Assembly: GCA_025462725.1 (NCBI GenBank)
Contig: JAOAPE010000007.1
Coordinates: 1-51,874 of the forward strand
Origin: Terriglobales bacterium
Lineage (GTDB): Bacteria > Acidobacteriota > Terriglobia > Terriglobales > Acidobacteriaceae
Length of the DNA stretch: 51,874 bases
Direction of reading: 5' to 3'
Below, in pieces: positions 43,012 through 49,252 of this stretch. Under the pieces are notes generated by a model. The model was not told the origin of the DNA. It saw only the letters and a list, made by a program, of their open reading frames with translations, and did no database searches. Position 1 is the stretch's first letter. The number at the start of each line of letters is the position of its first letter. A program made the translations under genes and the position numbers.

Positions 43012-45456
43012 CTATTCTTGTCTGAGGGTACTCGCCGGATCCACCTTCGTTGCCCTGTACGCCGGAACCAAACTCGCCGTCGCCGCCACTACTAGCAGCA
43101 ACATCGACCCGCCCGCCAGCGTGGACACATCCGTCGCGCTCACTCCATATACCATCGTCGCCACCGCGCGTCCCATCGCCAGCGACAGCGCCACTCCGAT
43201 GACCACGCCCACTGCCGCCGGTTTCAAACCTTGCAGCAAGATCAACTTCAGGATGTCCCCAAGTTGCGCGCCCAACGCCAATCGGATACCGATCTCCCGC
43301 ACCCTGCGCTTCACCGCATAAGCCAGCACGCTGTAGATTCCCACCGCTGCGAGCGTCAGTGCCAGCGCCGCGAATGCTACAAGCAGTGTCATGTTCATTC
43401 GTTGCGCCTGCAGAGTCTCGCCGATGAACGCATCCATCGTCATCACATCCAGCGTTGGCATCTGGCTGTCCACCTGATGGACAGCATTGATCACGCTCGC
43501 CGTGATCGCCGCCGGATCTGAAGCCGCGCGCACAACCATTGAAAACGGTTGCGCCTTCCACTCCTGGCCCTTCGGCCATTCGCGTTGAGCAATCGGCTGG
43601 TAGAGCGTGGGAGAAGGTTCATTCGACGTCATTGAATCCTGCTTCACGTCGCCCACCACGCCCACAACTTCCATCACCTTGCCTTGCCCGAAGGTCAGCG
43701 TAAGGTGCTTGCCAATAGCCTCCTGGTTCGGCCAGATCTGTTTCGCCATCGACGCGCTTATCAATATCGCTCCCGGCCGCTCCATCGTGTCGCCATCGTT
43801 GATGTCGCGCCCCTTCAGCAGCGGGATAGCCATCGACTTCACATATCCCGGCGTGATCGCTCGCACATCAACCTCCGGCTGCTCTGACATCTGCACCACC
43901 GGCTGTCCTTCTGCCTGGATCGGCTGATGCGATCCTCCTGCCAGCGGCAAGTCGTCAATCATTCCCGCGGCCTGCACACCCGGCAGCGCGCGGACATTCC
44001 CCAATATCTGCTCCATCGCCTGGCTCTGCGACACTTGGGTTGCGTATCCGCTCTTAGAGAAACCCAGCACCATCGTTAGCGAGTGCTGCGTGTCGAATCC
44101 TGCATTCTCATGCTGCAAATTCCAAAGCGTGCGCATCATCAGCCCCGCGCCCACCAGCAACATCAGTGACAACGCCACTTCGGCGATAACCAATGCCGAC
44201 CTCGTCCGCGATCCGCCACTATCCGCGCCCACGTTGCGCGCGCTGTCTTTCAGCCCCTCGCCCGCATCGGCGTTGGCATACTTCCAAGCGGGGATCAATC
44301 CCGCAACGACTCCCGTCACCACTGACGTAATCAGCGTGAACAACAGCACGGAAGCATCCAGCCCGATCTCCGTCGAGCGCGGCAGGCTATTGCTCAGGAA
44401 TTTCACTATCAGCGCGATACCAAACTTCGCGACCACCAATCCCAGCGCGCCCCCCATCAGCGACAGCACTACTGACTCGCACAGCACCTGTTGCAACAAC
44501 CTCGTGCGGCTCGCGCCCAGCGCCACGCGGATAGCCAGCTCATGTCGCTTGCCCAGTGTTCTCGCGAGAAGTAGGTTCGCAACATTCGCGCATGCGATGA
44601 GCAACACGAATATCACCGCGCACAACAGCACGATCAGCGGACGCCTCACCTCGCCCACCGTCTCTTCGCGCAATGAGACCGCTTTCGCGCCCCAGTCTTT
44701 ATCGTCTGCCGGATACTGCTGCGCCAGCGCCTGCGATATCGTCCCCAACTCCGCGTTCGCCTGCTGCAGCGTGACCCCTGGATTCAACCTGGCGATCACC
44801 AGGTAATTATGGTTTCCGCGCACAGTTTTCCCTTGCGACGTCATCGCCATCGGCGTCCACACCTGCGCCCAACTCGGCTTTGTCACATTCGGCCCCATCA
44901 CGCCGACGATCTGGTATGGCTCACGGTCAAACTCGATCTGCCGGCCAATGATGTTCTTATCGCCCGCGTAATGGTCCATCCAGAACTTGTGGGTCAGGAT
45001 GACAACATGATTTTTCCCCGGCTGGTCCTCCTCCGCTGAAAACGTGCGCCCCAAGATCGGCTGCACTCCAAGCGTAGGAAAAAAACTCTCCGGCACTGAC
45101 CCTGAGGTCACGGCCTGCGGCTTGTCCACGCCCGTCAGGTTATAGCCGGCGAAACCATAGATGGCCATGTTCTGAAAGACATGGTTCATCGCCTTCCAGT
45201 CCAGGTAGTTCGCCGCCGAGACGCTGAACCGCGTCATCCCCGGAAACGCCTTCGGCGGCGGAACATGCCACACCTGCACCAGCCGCTCCGGCTCGGCAAA
45301 TGGCAGCGGACGCAGCAACACCGAATTCACCACGCTGAATATCGCCGTGTTGGCGCCAATGCCCAACGCCATCACCAGGATCGCGGCTGCCGCAAATCCT
45401 TTCGCCTTTAGCAATGACCGCACCGCTTGCCGCAAGTCCTGACCAAGATTCGCCAT
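43012..45456 (-). CDS. ABC-type permease, ADOP family (MacB-like)
   Basis: An 814-residue protein with two FtsX/MacB-type halves. The N-terminal part has [20 protein letters not shown] then [14 protein letters not shown], typical of ADOP (acidobacterial duplicated orphan permeases). Each half has a periplasmic domain and about four membrane helices (for example about 20-45, 270-300, 330-375, and 690-810). The C-terminal [19 protein letters not shown] and [10 protein letters not shown] are conserved. No ATPase gene is adjacent, as usual for the family. Substrate and role unknown. Confidence 0.92.
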
Positions 45457-45700
45457 TCGTGTGTCTCCTAAGAGCTTCGCGGATTAAGTGCAATCCCGAT
45501 GCCATCTCCATAAGACCTATACGAAGGAAATTGGTCACCGTTACAAGTTTTTAGAAGGGATTCGCTGTCCGGAAACAGAAGGAGGTGTTCGGATGTGGAC
45601 AGTGGGGGTCTCGGAACGACTATTTACTACAGAGATACTTTGCAATTTTAGCCATAGGAGTAGTCTTGGTGAAAATCCCCGGCACCCCCCAAGGATACCG

Positions 45701-46870
45701 ATGCCAAGCCAAAAGAAGTCCATTCCGAAGAAACTGACATTAAAAGCACAACGCGCAGCTCGCGCAAAAGAAACTTCCCCGCATCCCGGTCTTTCCTTTT
45801 CGCATAAGCACCACGTTTTCATTTGCAAAGTTAAGCGTGGAGAGATGTGGGCTTTAAATCATTTGACGCCGAAAGATAAGGCCACCGTCACGCCATTGTT
45901 TGAGATGTGGCCTCCCGCTCCACCTCGGAAAGCCCAAGACGGCGAAGAGGGAAAGGCTCCTAAGACATTGAGTGTTCATGCTTCGGACCTTCTCGGAATG
46001 GTCCGGGATGAGTGGAACACGCTTCCATTTTTTCTCGATACACGCTATGTCCCACTCGGTGGCATTCCTTCGCCTTCAAGCGCGAAAATAATATTCGACT
46101 CTGCAAGGAATATGGGCTTAACAGCCATCCCGGTCACATCGATTAAATTCGCCCCTGAATTTCAGCATGCAATCCGCGACATCAACGCGAAAGACGGGCG
46201 CGGGGTCATGATCAGATTGTTTATTCAAGATTTTATTAACCCTGCGCTTCTCAATGACTACCTGTCTGCGCTCTTGGGAGTATTGAAAATTGATGCCACC
46301 AAGGCCGATATCTTGATCGACTTGGAATACAAACCGCAGCAATTGGAAGTTCAACAGTTAGGCCACTCAGCTGTGTCGGTCTTGCCAATGCTTAAGAAAT
46401 GGCGAACCGTGATCCTATCGTCTGGCTGTTTTCCATTGTCGATCTCAGACTTTCCACTTGATGAGTGGAGGTCAATTCAACGAAGCGATTGGCTGGGGTG
46501 GCTGCATGTGAACTCGGTTCTTGCAAAAGCTAAATCGCGGCAAATTTCATACGGTGATTACGGTATCCGATGCGGGGGTACTCCTAAGAACATCCCAAAT
46601 AGGCCAGACCCCAATATCCGGTATTCGGCAGCTAGCAATATTTTAGTGCGGAAAGGCCCTAAAGTTGACGGGACAGTGAAGGGTATCTGCGGGAGCTTGA
46701 TTGGAAAATCAGAATTTGCAGGAATAAATTTCAGTCAGGGCGACGCGGAGATAGCTGTGAGAGCAGCCAGGCCAGGTTTGCCGAATAATGGTCAAGCAGA
46801 GCAATGGATCCAGTGGTGCACGAATCACCATCTTGCTTTGACTGCTTCACAAATCCGGAACCTCCCCTAG
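45701..46870 (+). CDS. Beta-family protein (phage-T4-beta-like, sce7725-type)
   Basis: A 389-residue protein I assign to the beta family (Pfam-type 'beta protein', related to sce7725). It is recognised from the N-terminal basic tail then HKHHVFICKVKRGEMWAL, the block LTPKDKATVTPLFEMWPP, and the C-terminal NNGQAEQWIQWCTNHHLALT. The ATG at 45701 follows AAGGA five bases upstream; a start at 45488 would prepend unrelated residues. Molecular function unknown; such genes occur in mobile or defence-like contexts. The 3' end overlaps the convergent sce7726-like gene by 140 bases. Visibly AT-richer than neighbours. Confidence 0.78.
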   Translation: MPSQKKSIPKKLTLKAQRAARAKETSPHPGLSFSHKHHVFICKVKRGEMWALNHLTPKDKATVTPLFEMWPPAPPRKAQDGEEGKAPKTLSVHASDLLGMVRDEWNTLPFFLDTRYVPLGGIPSPSSAKIIFDSARNMGLTAIPVTSIKFAPEFQHAIRDINAKDGRGVMIRLFIQDFINPALLNDYLSALLGVLKIDATKADILIDLEYKPQQLEVQQLGHSAVSVLPMLKKWRTVILSSGCFPLSISDFPLDEWRSIQRSDWLGWLHVNSVLAKAKSRQISYGDYGIRCGGTPKNIPNRPDPNIRYSAASNILVRKGPKVDGTVKGICGSLIGKSEFAGINFSQGDAEIAVRAARPGLPNNGQAEQWIQWCTNHHLALTASQIRNLP

Positions 46871-47417
46871 CTTTAATTGCTAATCTGGCTTCTTTAGCTA
46901 GAGTTTTTACGTCCAACAGCCGCGAAGTCTCGTTCCAAATTTGCTCTGCTGAAGCTTTGGAGGTGAGATGCCTGTGCCCATGACGTCTTAAACATTTTAA
47001 CGCCTCATCTTTCCACAACATGCGTGACAAAGCGGTACTGTCCTGAAACTTGTTCCTTTTGGCGCTACGTTCTTTAGAGATAGTAATGGATCCGTTTTCG
47101 TTTTGCGCGAGTTGCAGACCCCACCATTTTGGAACGACTGCGCGCGCGGCAGAGATTAGCTTCTTTCCACAAACAAGAGTGACAAAATCGAATACTCGGC
47201 GGTACTGGTCAACCTGCCCAGCTAAACGGTCTAAGTTGTCACTGTCGCTCTTTATCTCGTAGCCGTGAAGAAATCCATTTACGACTGCTACATCGATGCG
47301 GGACGCATTGCATCCAAACTCTTCCAAAATTAAATCGTGAGACGGGTCAGGATATTTCTCTTCTAAGATTGCCAGCAAGACCGCGCGAATGTCGGAATCT
47401 CGGGTTAGCGTTACCAT
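46731..47417 (-). CDS. sce7726-family protein with PD-(D/E)XK-like motif
   Basis: A 228-residue protein of the sce7726 type, which is commonly paired with sce7725/beta proteins. A nuclease-like signature is present: E32/E33, D42 in SRIDVAVVNG, then E54-x-K56 in HGYEIKSDSDNL. This spacing is what a PD-(D/E)XK nuclease would show; catalysis is inferred, not shown. The C-terminal 120 residues are helical and basic. A candidate -35/-10 with an overlapping palindrome lies just upstream. Tail-to-tail overlap with the beta gene. Confidence 0.8.
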   Translation of the reverse strand: MVTLTRDSDIRAVLLAILEEKYPDPSHDLILEEFGCNASRIDVAVVNGFLHGYEIKSDSDNLDRLAGQVDQYRRVFDFVTLVCGKKLISAARAVVPKWWGLQLAQNENGSITISKERSAKRNKFQDSTALSRMLWKDEALKCLRRHGHRHLTSKASAEQIWNETSRLLDVKTLAKEARLAIKARGGSGFVKQSKQDGDSCTTGSIALLDHYSANLAWLLSQLSPRRPD

Positions 47418-47481
47418 AAAAGTTTCCGTGTATCACAATAGAACCAAACTAAACATTCAGCAAAGTGAGCGAGGTTGATTC

Positions 47482-47510
47482 ATCTTAACGGATAGATTGA
47501 CGCGGTCAAT
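47482..47510 (-). promoter_or_regulatory. Candidate promoter and operator of the sce7726-like gene
   Basis: On the - strand, TTGACC (47504-47509) and TAAGAT (47482-47487) are 16 bases apart. The -35 overlaps a palindrome with arms ATTGAC/GTCAAT around GCG (47496-47510). The position is right for a repressor site. Strength modest. Confidence 0.45.
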
Positions 47511-47561
47511 TATGGAGTATGGTTCTCGACCAATATGGTAGACCCGGACAGACATTGCACG

Positions 47562-48620
47562 CTACCTTTCACGATATTTTTTCCAGACTTCTTCCAAGTT
47601 CAAGGTTGGCAACGCTTCCCTAATTTTTGTTACGGCTGTTGTGCTATATCTGTCGAAACGCGCCTTTCCTATCTGCACCTGCTTAAAGCAGTCAGGCTTC
47701 TCCTTGATCTTGAGTTGCCATATCACGGCTGTCGTTTTAGGGGGGCTGAGTGCCACCTGCTGTGCGACTTGATCGCGACCAAGCGAATAAAACCCGAGTT
47801 CGTCAACTCGTCTCACCGCTACTACGGCGACTCCGGGCGTAGTCTCACGTACCAGCTGTACTGGGATGCCTTCTTTCTTGCTGATACGGAGATTCACCGG
47901 AACGCCGGTACCTTCTGTATTCAATGACAACGAAGTTATCCCTGGAAAAACCACATCAGCAGCCTCGCTCCTTCTAATTCTTGTTAACAGTGCATTAAGC
48001 TCCCCTTCACTAGGCTGCACTTTCTCTCCCTTTAAAGTCGATTCAATTACTGCAAGGCTTCGAGCGCGAGCTCTAGCTTCGAAGAGTCGCCGCCGTCCAG
48101 GACGGAGAAGACTTCGAATGAATTTCATTTCGTCTTCTACTAACACATCCAAATCGGACGGAGGATGCGTAGTAATAGGGAGCACTCTACTTGGCAAGAA
48201 CGTCGCGAGTCCTTCGCCAAAGACTGTGGCAAGAATGTCAGAAAACAGAGTGACTCCTGATCTAGTTGCAAGGTAGAGCTGTTGTTCTGGAATATCAAGC
48301 AGATAGTGTTGCTCTGCGTCTCTTAATCCATTAATCATTTGCAGAGTCAGTGCTTGTTCGTTGCTCAGAAAGCTCACATTACCGTCGTTCAGCGCCCTTT
48401 GTACGCAAGCATCAAAGCCAATCGTGTTCTTTGCTCGCCGTTCTCGAATTCGGCCGCCACGCTCGAGAATTCCCGCTTTGAGCAACATCTCAAAGCCATG
48501 GTCTAACAGGATTAGCACCGCCTGCGCCCGACCCGGATCAACAGGACGGTTAAACAATTCAATTGAAAGCAACAAAGCATCCAATGCTTTTTTTCTGAGC
48601 AGCTTGACTTCTCGCTTCAT
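47562..48620 (-). CDS. DUF3644 protein with HEPN-like motif
   Basis: A 352-residue protein of the DUF3644 type, recognised from DALLLSIELFNRPVDPGRAQ and VLILLDHGFEMLLKAGI. The helical N-terminal part contains R100-x4-H105 (INGLRDAEQHYLLD), the signature of HEPN ribonucleases; assignment to that fold is my inference. The second half (about 150-350) is mixed and unassigned. The start overlaps the upstream small gene as ATGA (48617-48620). Role possibly abortive infection by RNA cleavage, not shown. Lower G+C than the rest of the window. Confidence 0.78.
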   Translation of the reverse strand: MKREVKLLRKKALDALLLSIELFNRPVDPGRAQAVLILLDHGFEMLLKAGILERGGRIRERRAKNTIGFDACVQRALNDGNVSFLSNEQALTLQMINGLRDAEQHYLLDIPEQQLYLATRSGVTLFSDILATVFGEGLATFLPSRVLPITTHPPSDLDVLVEDEMKFIRSLLRPGRRRLFEARARARSLAVIESTLKGEKVQPSEGELNALLTRIRRSEAADVVFPGITSLSLNTEGTGVPVNLRISKKEGIPVQLVRETTPGVAVVAVRRVDELGFYSLGRDQVAQQVALSPPKTTAVIWQLKIKEKPDCFKQVQIGKARFDRYSTTAVTKIREALPTLNLEEVWKKYRER

Positions 48621-48883
48621 TCCGTTCTTCCGCTCAGCTCTCTTGTTTTTTCTAGTGCTTCAGCTTCATCCAGCAAAAAATCTTCAACCCAAACTTTTGT
48701 CTCGTTGCCGTTAGCAACTTGAATTACGCTCTTCATCCCAAATGACTCTAGTTCTCCTTTAATGACCGAACCCTCGGACAATAGCGCACCACCGAACCAC
48801 TCCAGGATGGTGCACCCCAAACGGCACTCGATCACATAGTAATCACCTAACTCCTTGATCACGGTGCCTGTCTTCATCGTCAT
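48617..48883 (-). CDS. Small beta-rich protein, putative partner of DUF3644
   Basis: An 88-residue protein with no family assignment. Alternating short strands (GTVIKELGDYYVIECRLG, then SVIKGELESFGMKSVIQVAN) suggest a small beta-barrel; the end is helical and charged (DEAEALEKTRELSGRTE). AGGAG stands nine bases before the ATG. Its stop overlaps the DUF3644 start, so the two are coupled with this gene first, as antitoxins often are. A candidate operator is just upstream. Antitoxin role is inference. Confidence 0.65.
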   Translation of the reverse strand: MTMKTGTVIKELGDYYVIECRLGCTILEWFGGALLSEGSVIKGELESFGMKSVIQVANGNETKVWVEDFLLDEAEALEKTRELSGRTE

Positions 48884-48918: not shown

Positions 48919-48960
48919 AGTATAGCTGACTCAGTCACCGCATACTGATCCAAGTCAGCT
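48919..48960 (-). promoter_or_regulatory. Candidate -10 and operator upstream of the small gene
   Basis: On the - strand a TATACT -10 (48919-48924) lies next to an 11-base palindrome TGACTCAGTCA (48927-48937). A wider inverted repeat AGCTGACT (48924-48931) / AGTCAGCT (48953-48960) overlaps it. No clear -35 is seen. The layout resembles an autoregulated toxin-antitoxin operator. Confidence 0.5.
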
Positions 48961-48978: not shown

Positions 48979-49008
48979 TTGACACTCCCCTGCAATCAGG
49001 CATATACT
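48979..49008 (+). promoter_or_regulatory. Near-consensus sigma-70 promoter
   Basis: TTGACA (48979-48984), an 18-base spacer and TATACT (49003-49008). The -35 is perfect, the -10 has four or five matches. It points to the gene at 49253, giving a leader of about 240 bases. Confidence 0.75.
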
Positions 49009-49087
49009 TTATTTGTTAATTAGCTAGAAGTTATATGCCTCACCTACTCTCCCTCACCCCGCCCTCGCACTCCGTCCTAAGTTCTTT

Positions 49088-49173: not shown

Positions 49174-49207
49174 ATTTTGACCCCCCGGGGGGGGGTAGGT
49201 CGACTTC

Positions 49208-49235
49208 TAGCCACTGATCACTAGCCACTAACCAC
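49208..49235 (+). repeat. Heptameric repeat (TAGCCAC / TAACCAC type)
   Basis: Units TAGCCAC, TGATCAC, TAGCCAC, TAACCAC (49208-49235), then TGATGA, immediately before the ribosome-binding region of the gene at 49253. Two of the four units are identical. Confidence 0.55.
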
Positions 49236-49252
49236 TGATGAAGAGGGTTCCA

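Follow-up and report, generated by a model that had tools for sequence, protein, structure and literature searches.

The four-gene island

The DNA analysed here, called the window throughout, is a stretch of 51,874 nucleotides from a Terriglobales bacterium (Acidobacteriota; contig JAOAPE010000007.1 of assembly GCA_025462725.1), and its subject is a 3.2-kb island at 45701-48883 that holds four intact, closely packed open reading frames (ORFs): beta, sce7726, a DUF3644 gene and a gene for a small protein. An earlier note on this DNA, made from the letters alone, had assigned them to families of defence type and had joined them into one set. The assignment was confirmed (PF14350 for beta, NF033832 for sce7726, PF12358 and PDC-S19 for DUF3644), and we read the island as two separate modules, beta–cII (module A) and small–DUF3644 (module B), with a presumed role in phage defence, at a probability of roughly 0.7. 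The parts of both modules are mostly of known kinds. The features are as follows.

45701..46870, plus strand: beta, PF14350 Beta protein, 389 aa (Pfam, PADLOC, homologue in locus L038)
46731..46870: 140 bp in which the convergent beta and sce7726 genes overlap tail to tail
46731..47417, minus strand: sce7726, cII-like, predicted PD-(D/E)XK nuclease, 228 aa (NF033832, PADLOC cll, conserved residues, fold)
47418..47561: 144-bp gap between the DUF3644 gene and sce7726, which share a strand
47562..48620, minus strand: DUF3644 protein (PDC-S19), 352 aa, with a predicted HEPN domain at about residues 1-137 and a winged-helix-like C-terminus at about 275-341
48617..48883, minus strand: gene of the 88-aa small protein, which belongs to no named family, joined to DUF3644 by ATGA
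48924..48960: perfect 8-bp inverted repeat AGCTGACT...AGTCAGCT (arms at 48924 and 48953, 21-nt spacer), candidate operator of the small–DUF3644 pair
48998..49040: perfect 9-bp inverted repeat AGGCATATA...TATATGCCT (arms at 48998 and 49032), second candidate operator

The beta–cII pair

Profile searches matched beta to PF14350 in Pfam (E 2.6e-51) and to PADLOC PD-Lambda-2_C (E 3.9e-32), and sce7726 to NF033832 (E 8.6e-45; 152.9 bits, cut-off 70) and the PADLOC cll model (E 9.1e-29), while a phage search with sce7726 found P4 cII. The best beta homologue (E 1.3e-126) lies in L038, a locus from the same bacterial family as the window, which also holds the closest beta–cII pair (54% for sce7726). 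By sequence, the two window proteins are identified as β and cII of the P4 gop-beta-cII family, with a recognisable gop missing. The pairing had been recognised as a known one in the earlier note, which was silent on the gop-beta-cII name and on the convergent, overlapping arrangement of the two genes.

That arrangement recurs widely. We surveyed 29 sce7726 loci, the window among them, that came from genomes, plasmids and phages; these were the matches viewed in context, namely 13 of 44 plasmid records (L014 and twelve others), 3 of 15 phage records, 9 of 10 matches from the phylum of the window (window included, G232 left out) and all four from the phylum of genome G298. Beta was present in 20 of the 29 and convergent with sce7726 in every one, and the 3' ends overlapped by 4-140 bp in 19 of the 20 pairs, the remaining one being P4, with a 27-bp gap. 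These pairs include near duplicates (L060 and L061), two that are alike (L043 and L044) and one in which the beta ORF is a fragment beside an insertion sequence (L059). Viral contigs gave a similar picture: among the best 80 of 168 loci, which comprise 58 distinct sce7726 C-termini and many of which are cut by contig ends, 77 had a convergent beta, overlapping by 8-159 bp in 75 and separated by gaps of 37 and 341 bp in the other two. For a rough comparison, other convergent neighbours were counted by hand in annotated tables, and 3 of 34 such pairs overlap (by 4, 4 and 20 bp); beta/sce7726 neighbours were left out of this set, and two of its pairs are sce7726 with a transposase gene. With 19 of 20 pairs and 75 of 80 viral loci overlapping, the overlap is a trait of the family and no quirk of the window.

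Nine of the 29 loci had no beta by profile. Among them, L064 has sce7726 abutting a Tn3 transposase gene, L100 stops at the contig edge, and L037 (3633-5521) and L098 (5247-7138) carry an sce7725 gene that runs in the same direction, which makes a second layout within the sce7726 family.

Single-sequence searches of the 80 viral loci with P4 Gop, the protein encoded upstream in L060 and the HEPN/Abi proteins of L055 and L062 gave no matches, with the limit that a diverged gop could escape such a search; a short Xre match was seen in two. That 77 of 80 viral loci have the convergent pair and no match to P4 gop suggests that gop is perhaps an add-on and not part of the core. The best-scoring viral relative of the window sce7726 (51%; L104, 2179-3994) has a convergent beta, an adjoining ORF that looks integrase-like by eye, and no DUF3644. 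Directly upstream of sce7726 in L038 (8467-9570) are two ORFs with hydrophobic stretches, of 73 and 293 aa, the longer of which matches no family in Pfam or PADLOC; it is possible that these encode the effector of that beta–cII locus.

The residues E33, D42, E54, K56 and Q68 are invariant in all 25 aligned sce7726 proteins, P4 cII included (four proteins from the G298 phylum were left out of the alignment). An AlphaFold model built with 8 sequences (mean pLDDT 80.4) could be aligned with 3dnx (Z 11.2, 141 residues, 4.3 Å) and with the restriction enzyme PaqCI (Z 9.2, 125 residues, 4.3 Å), with middling scores for XisH proteins (7.7), EndoMS (6.8), BamHI (5.2) and also BsmI. PaqCI, XisH, EndoMS and BamHI have the restriction-endonuclease-like fold in common. 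The PD-(D/E)XK-like signature that had been noted in this protein (D42, E54-x-K56) thus held up in the alignment and agrees with the modelled structure, and cII/sce7726 is predicted to be a PD-(D/E)XK nuclease. Searching the PDB by sequence turned up nothing useful for any of the four island proteins, and the part of PMC9122126 available to us states no function for cII within gop-beta-cII. The survey shows how the pair is built and suggests that cII is a nuclease whose PD-(D/E)XK centre is intact in every aligned member.

The DUF3644 protein and its coupled gene

The DUF3644 protein matched PF12358 with 39.6 bits, above the gathering score of 27.6, and PADLOC PDC-S19 with 474.9 bits over residues 1-351. 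Its R100 and H105, which form the R-x4-H motif of HEPN proteins that had been pointed out before, do not vary among the 17 proteins aligned (the fragmented genes of L036 and L069 were left out). In the predicted structure (10 sequences, mean pLDDT 74.6, residues 231-274 poor), residues 1-137 adopt a HEPN fold, closest to 2hsb (Z 14.7, 125 residues, 2.5 Å) and, at lower scores, to the HEPN toxins of MNT-HEPN pairs (Z 10-12), and residues 275-341 show a middling similarity to a RacA-like DNA-binding fold (Z 6.4, 56 residues, 1.8 Å). DUF3644 was listed as a HEPN family in 2013, in a portion of PMC3710099; it is not named in the accessible portion of PMC12839542. From the motif and the model we infer that the protein is an endoribonuclease toxin of the HEPN type whose C-terminus is winged-helix-like.

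Several relatives of this protein lie in defence surroundings. The closest are in L045 (57% identity), with the order hsdM–Fic–hsdS–DUF3644–hsdR, and L009 (54%), with hsdS–DUF3644–hsdR, followed by L013 (52%), L010 (49%), where the gene comes after an Eco57I-type methylase, and L014 (40%). Since two close relatives sit inside operons for type I restriction, the DUF3644 protein is likely to be a second-line (abortive) effector. The earlier note had counted homologues outside defence islands as evidence against its proposal; for DUF3644 this is not what was seen, as close relatives lie in restriction loci or beside a TIR gene. In L013 (11998-13505) DUF3644 is followed directly by a ThsB-type TIR gene, and in L047 (9103-11707; 35%, more distant) directly by a CAP12/Pycsar-type TIR-domain gene; these are possible further pairings. 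In another type I restriction locus (L036, 9092-10168, in genome G267), the DUF3644 gene between hsdS and an hsdR-like fragment is broken up into three ORFs. No such restriction or defence context was seen in the annotated tables of three more distant plasmid loci (L015, L016 and L017).

The small gene and the DUF3644 gene are joined by the ATGA that had been noted before, with the junction reading GGAATGAAG. The small protein had no significant match in Pfam, NCBIfam, PADLOC or PHROGs. Distant relatives were found in G141 (L090, 680-1006), G067 (L076) and the viral loci L102 and L103, and none in plasmids; by eye, those of G141 and G067 start with a hydrophobic, signal-peptide-like segment and the window copy does not. 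Further matches lie in G242 and G243, and those in G155 and G233 look spurious. The small protein was considered as a recurrent DUF3644 partner, an idea that was dropped since no relative of it turned up in the other DUF3644 loci compared. Its coupling by ATGA and its position, which hsdS occupies in L009 and L045, suggest that it might inhibit the HEPN toxin.

Three inverted-repeat hits of 8 bp lie in the 354-bp intergenic stretch upstream of the small gene, a number reached in 0.8% of mononucleotide shuffles, with the qualification that two of the three are the 9-bp repeat counted twice as overlapping 8-bp hits. Taken alone, the AGCTGACT repeat in the 100 bp adjoining the gene had a counterpart in 2.2% of shuffles. 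The pair had been credited with an operator of its own; two inverted repeats are indeed present, and their role as operators is a candidate one.

Two probable modules at one locus

The two pairs are seldom found together. DUF3644 is near sce7726 in 2 of the 29 sce7726 loci, the window and L014, an Azospirillum plasmid, and 18 of the 20 beta–cII pairs have no DUF3644 in the stretch examined; in viral contigs, profile searches (E <= 1e-3) found DUF3644 in none of the 80 loci. Conversely, 17 of 19 DUF3644 loci, among which are 8 of 13 plasmid records viewed in context, are without sce7726, and the other two have it. Among 297 genomes of the phylum of the window, DUF3644 occurs in 5 and sce7726 in 10, both only in the genome of the window itself, and among 296 genomes from the phylum to which G298 (Actinoallomurus) belongs they occur in 8 and 4, with none in common. 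L038 is just as AT-rich at its beta–cII pair (G+C 0.485, against 0.600), yet neither DUF3644 nor the small protein has a match there, and unrelated ORFs lie upstream of its sce7726. Homologues of the joined set are thus found mostly apart, the proposal of four genes in one set was not supported, and a single four-gene system was rejected as first choice on co-occurrence.

Such a system, in which the DUF3644 HEPN toxin would replace gop or HigB and beta–cII would serve as a regulator or licensing core, we regard as unlikely. It has the merit that beta occurs with different toxins, gop in P4 and an Xre-peptidase with its upstream gene in L060/L061, which makes effector swapping plausible; DUF3644 is also co-directional with and upstream of the window sce7726, L014 shows the same neighbourhood again, and an MNT-HEPN gene (L055) and an Abi_2 gene (L062) also lie near sce7726. 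Against it, DUF3644 is in none of the 80 viral loci and in only 2 of the 20 other pairs. In L014, moreover, order and strand differ from those of the window, two other genes stand between, and the two modules differ in G+C (0.70 and 0.62). The gop and Xre genes are on the beta side, whereas DUF3644 is on the cII side, and the genes near sce7726 in L055, L062 and L038 belong to different families or to none.

A related proposition would take beta–cII as a self-contained two-gene immune core, where the conserved antisense 3' overlap ties a PD-(D/E)XK nuclease to its partner, with Gop, HigB/Xre-peptidase or a HEPN RNase plus small inhibitor as exchangeable suicide effectors; we give this little credence.

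The two-module reading suggests the following mechanism. Module A would be the core of a system of the gop-beta-cII / PD-lambda-2 kind, with no recognisable gop or HigB/Xre gene, in which cII would cut DNA as a PD-(D/E)XK nuclease and beta would be its partner, acting as regulator or sensor; the convergent, overlapping 3' ends tie the two genes together. In module B, the DUF3644 RNase would be kept inactive by the product, or a complex, of the coupled upstream gene, which is the 88-aa protein here and hsdS elsewhere; infection would then free the RNase and growth would stop.

Several observations weigh against this reading or its parts. In L014, beta, sce7726 and DUF3644 are within 5.5 kb, with beta–cII and DUF3644 2.5 kb apart. 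In the window, DUF3644 and sce7726 share a strand across a gap of only 144 bp, so that co-transcription is possible, and G+C is alike in all four genes, so that joint acquisition is possible as well. A relative of the small protein was present in no other DUF3644 locus among those compared, and its putative role as an inhibitor is drawn from the gene coupling. Foldseek E-values were weak for both modelled proteins, at best 5.7e-3 for sce7726 and 0.14 for DUF3644 (the latter with a probability of 1.00). In PD-lambda-2, neutralisation of the toxin did not require the beta-like component, according to part of PMC9519451.

Composition and surroundings of the island

The description of the island as compact and AT-richer proved apt, and its composition is foreign. 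The segment 45650-48900 has a G+C of 0.483, while 195 segments of 3250 bp average 0.552 (sd 0.019), and the four segments within 0.005 of its value or lower are all on the island. By gene, G+C is 0.468-0.490 in the four island genes and 0.567-0.601 in three measured flanking genes. The four-gene stretch is probably a small defence island that was acquired horizontally.

It is also conceivable, and in our view improbable, that beta–cII is a remnant that has lost gop and the DUF3644 pair a stray toxin, the island being cargo without present function. The lack of a P4-gop match among the window ORFs fits this idea, as does the rarity of the arrangement, since the island was not seen elsewhere, DUF3644 occurs in few genomes of the phylum and the only other strong match there (G267) is a broken gene. 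Yet the four ORFs are intact and tightly packed, the catalytic residues are all intact, and pairs without a recognisable gop are common, the viral loci being free of P4-gop matches (with the same limit for a diverged gop), so that the absence of gop is no mark of a remnant.

The island lies between an FtsX/MacB-type permease gene (43012-45456, minus strand) and an ORF at 49238 without a significant Pfam match. For beta the ATG start was taken, as the resulting length agrees with the 391-aa ORF of L038; a GTG at 45488, upstream, is also in the open frame. The gap at 47418..47561 holds one weak promoter-like match, and promoter- and terminator-like matches were no more frequent than in shuffled sequence. 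The window has no tRNA genes, and no convincing direct repeats bound the island. A search for an empty insertion site with the FtsX permease DNA gave many partial matches; at the best of them (G601 and G623), inspection by eye revealed no clear orthologous junction. Just to the right of the island, at 49183-49234, a run of C and then a run of G stand beside a tandem 14-bp repeat (CTAGCCACTGATCA/CTAGCCACTAACCA).

Comparison with known systems

MNT-HEPN toxin-antitoxin pairs share the HEPN fold with module B; unlike their antitoxins, the 88-aa small protein has no nucleotidyltransferase match at E <= 1. With the PADLOC candidate PDC-S19, module B shares a DUF3644 HEPN match over the full length and a conserved motif; the difference is that the coupled upstream gene in the window, which encodes the 88-aa protein without a family, is neither hsdS nor any other known defence gene.

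In EcoprrI, the slot of PrrC, a HEPN anticodon nuclease, is exactly between hsdS and hsdR of the type I restriction operon, where two close DUF3644 relatives also stand. The embedding of this HEPN RNase with hsdMSR is described in part of PMC3710099. Unlike PrrC, the window DUF3644 has no ABC-ATPase match, and there is no hsd gene among its neighbours (sce7726/beta, the FtsX/MacB permease gene and the ORF at 49238), a negative limited to these genes. The hsdS–DUF3644–hsdR loci nominate a PrrC-like family of second-line RNases without an ATPase domain.

PD-lambda-2 consists of a HigB-like toxin (A), an Xre-peptidase (B) and a beta-like component (C), and the window beta belongs to the C-component family. 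PD-lambda-2C, which is related to a P4 antitoxin, is required for defence, as stated in a section of PMC9519451. Neither A nor B had a PADLOC match among the four island proteins, and nothing in the window matched the L060 Xre-peptidase or its upstream protein at E <= 0.01. The rhizobial loci L060/L061 (5944-9352) combine a PD-lambda-2-like operon (upstream protein, Xre-peptidase and beta, with the L060 Xre protein matching PADLOC PD-Lambda-2_B) with a convergent, overlapping sce7726, which suggests cII as a possible fourth component in loci of this type.

The nearest parallel to module A is gop-beta-cII of the satellite phage P4, whose three proteins each match the corresponding PADLOC model (gop, beta or cll) across almost the whole length. 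According to the part of Rousset et al. (PMC9122126) that treats it, the system provides defence against both lambda and P1, and toxicity of gop in the absence of beta is cited there. P4 and the window have proteins of the beta and cII families in common, encoded by convergent genes, and the E...D...ExK...Q residues of cII. They differ in that P4 carries gop, whereas no window ORF of at least 30 aa matched P4 gop at E <= 10 (phmmer; a strongly diverged gop could escape), in that the window beta matches the PADLOC PD-Lambda-2_C models and not the P4 beta model, and in their 3' ends, which overlap by 140 bp in the window and leave the 27-bp gap, with an annotated terminator, in P4. The value of the findings lies in the architecture of beta–cII, the assignment of cII as a predicted nuclease, and the DUF3644 relatives embedded in restriction operons.

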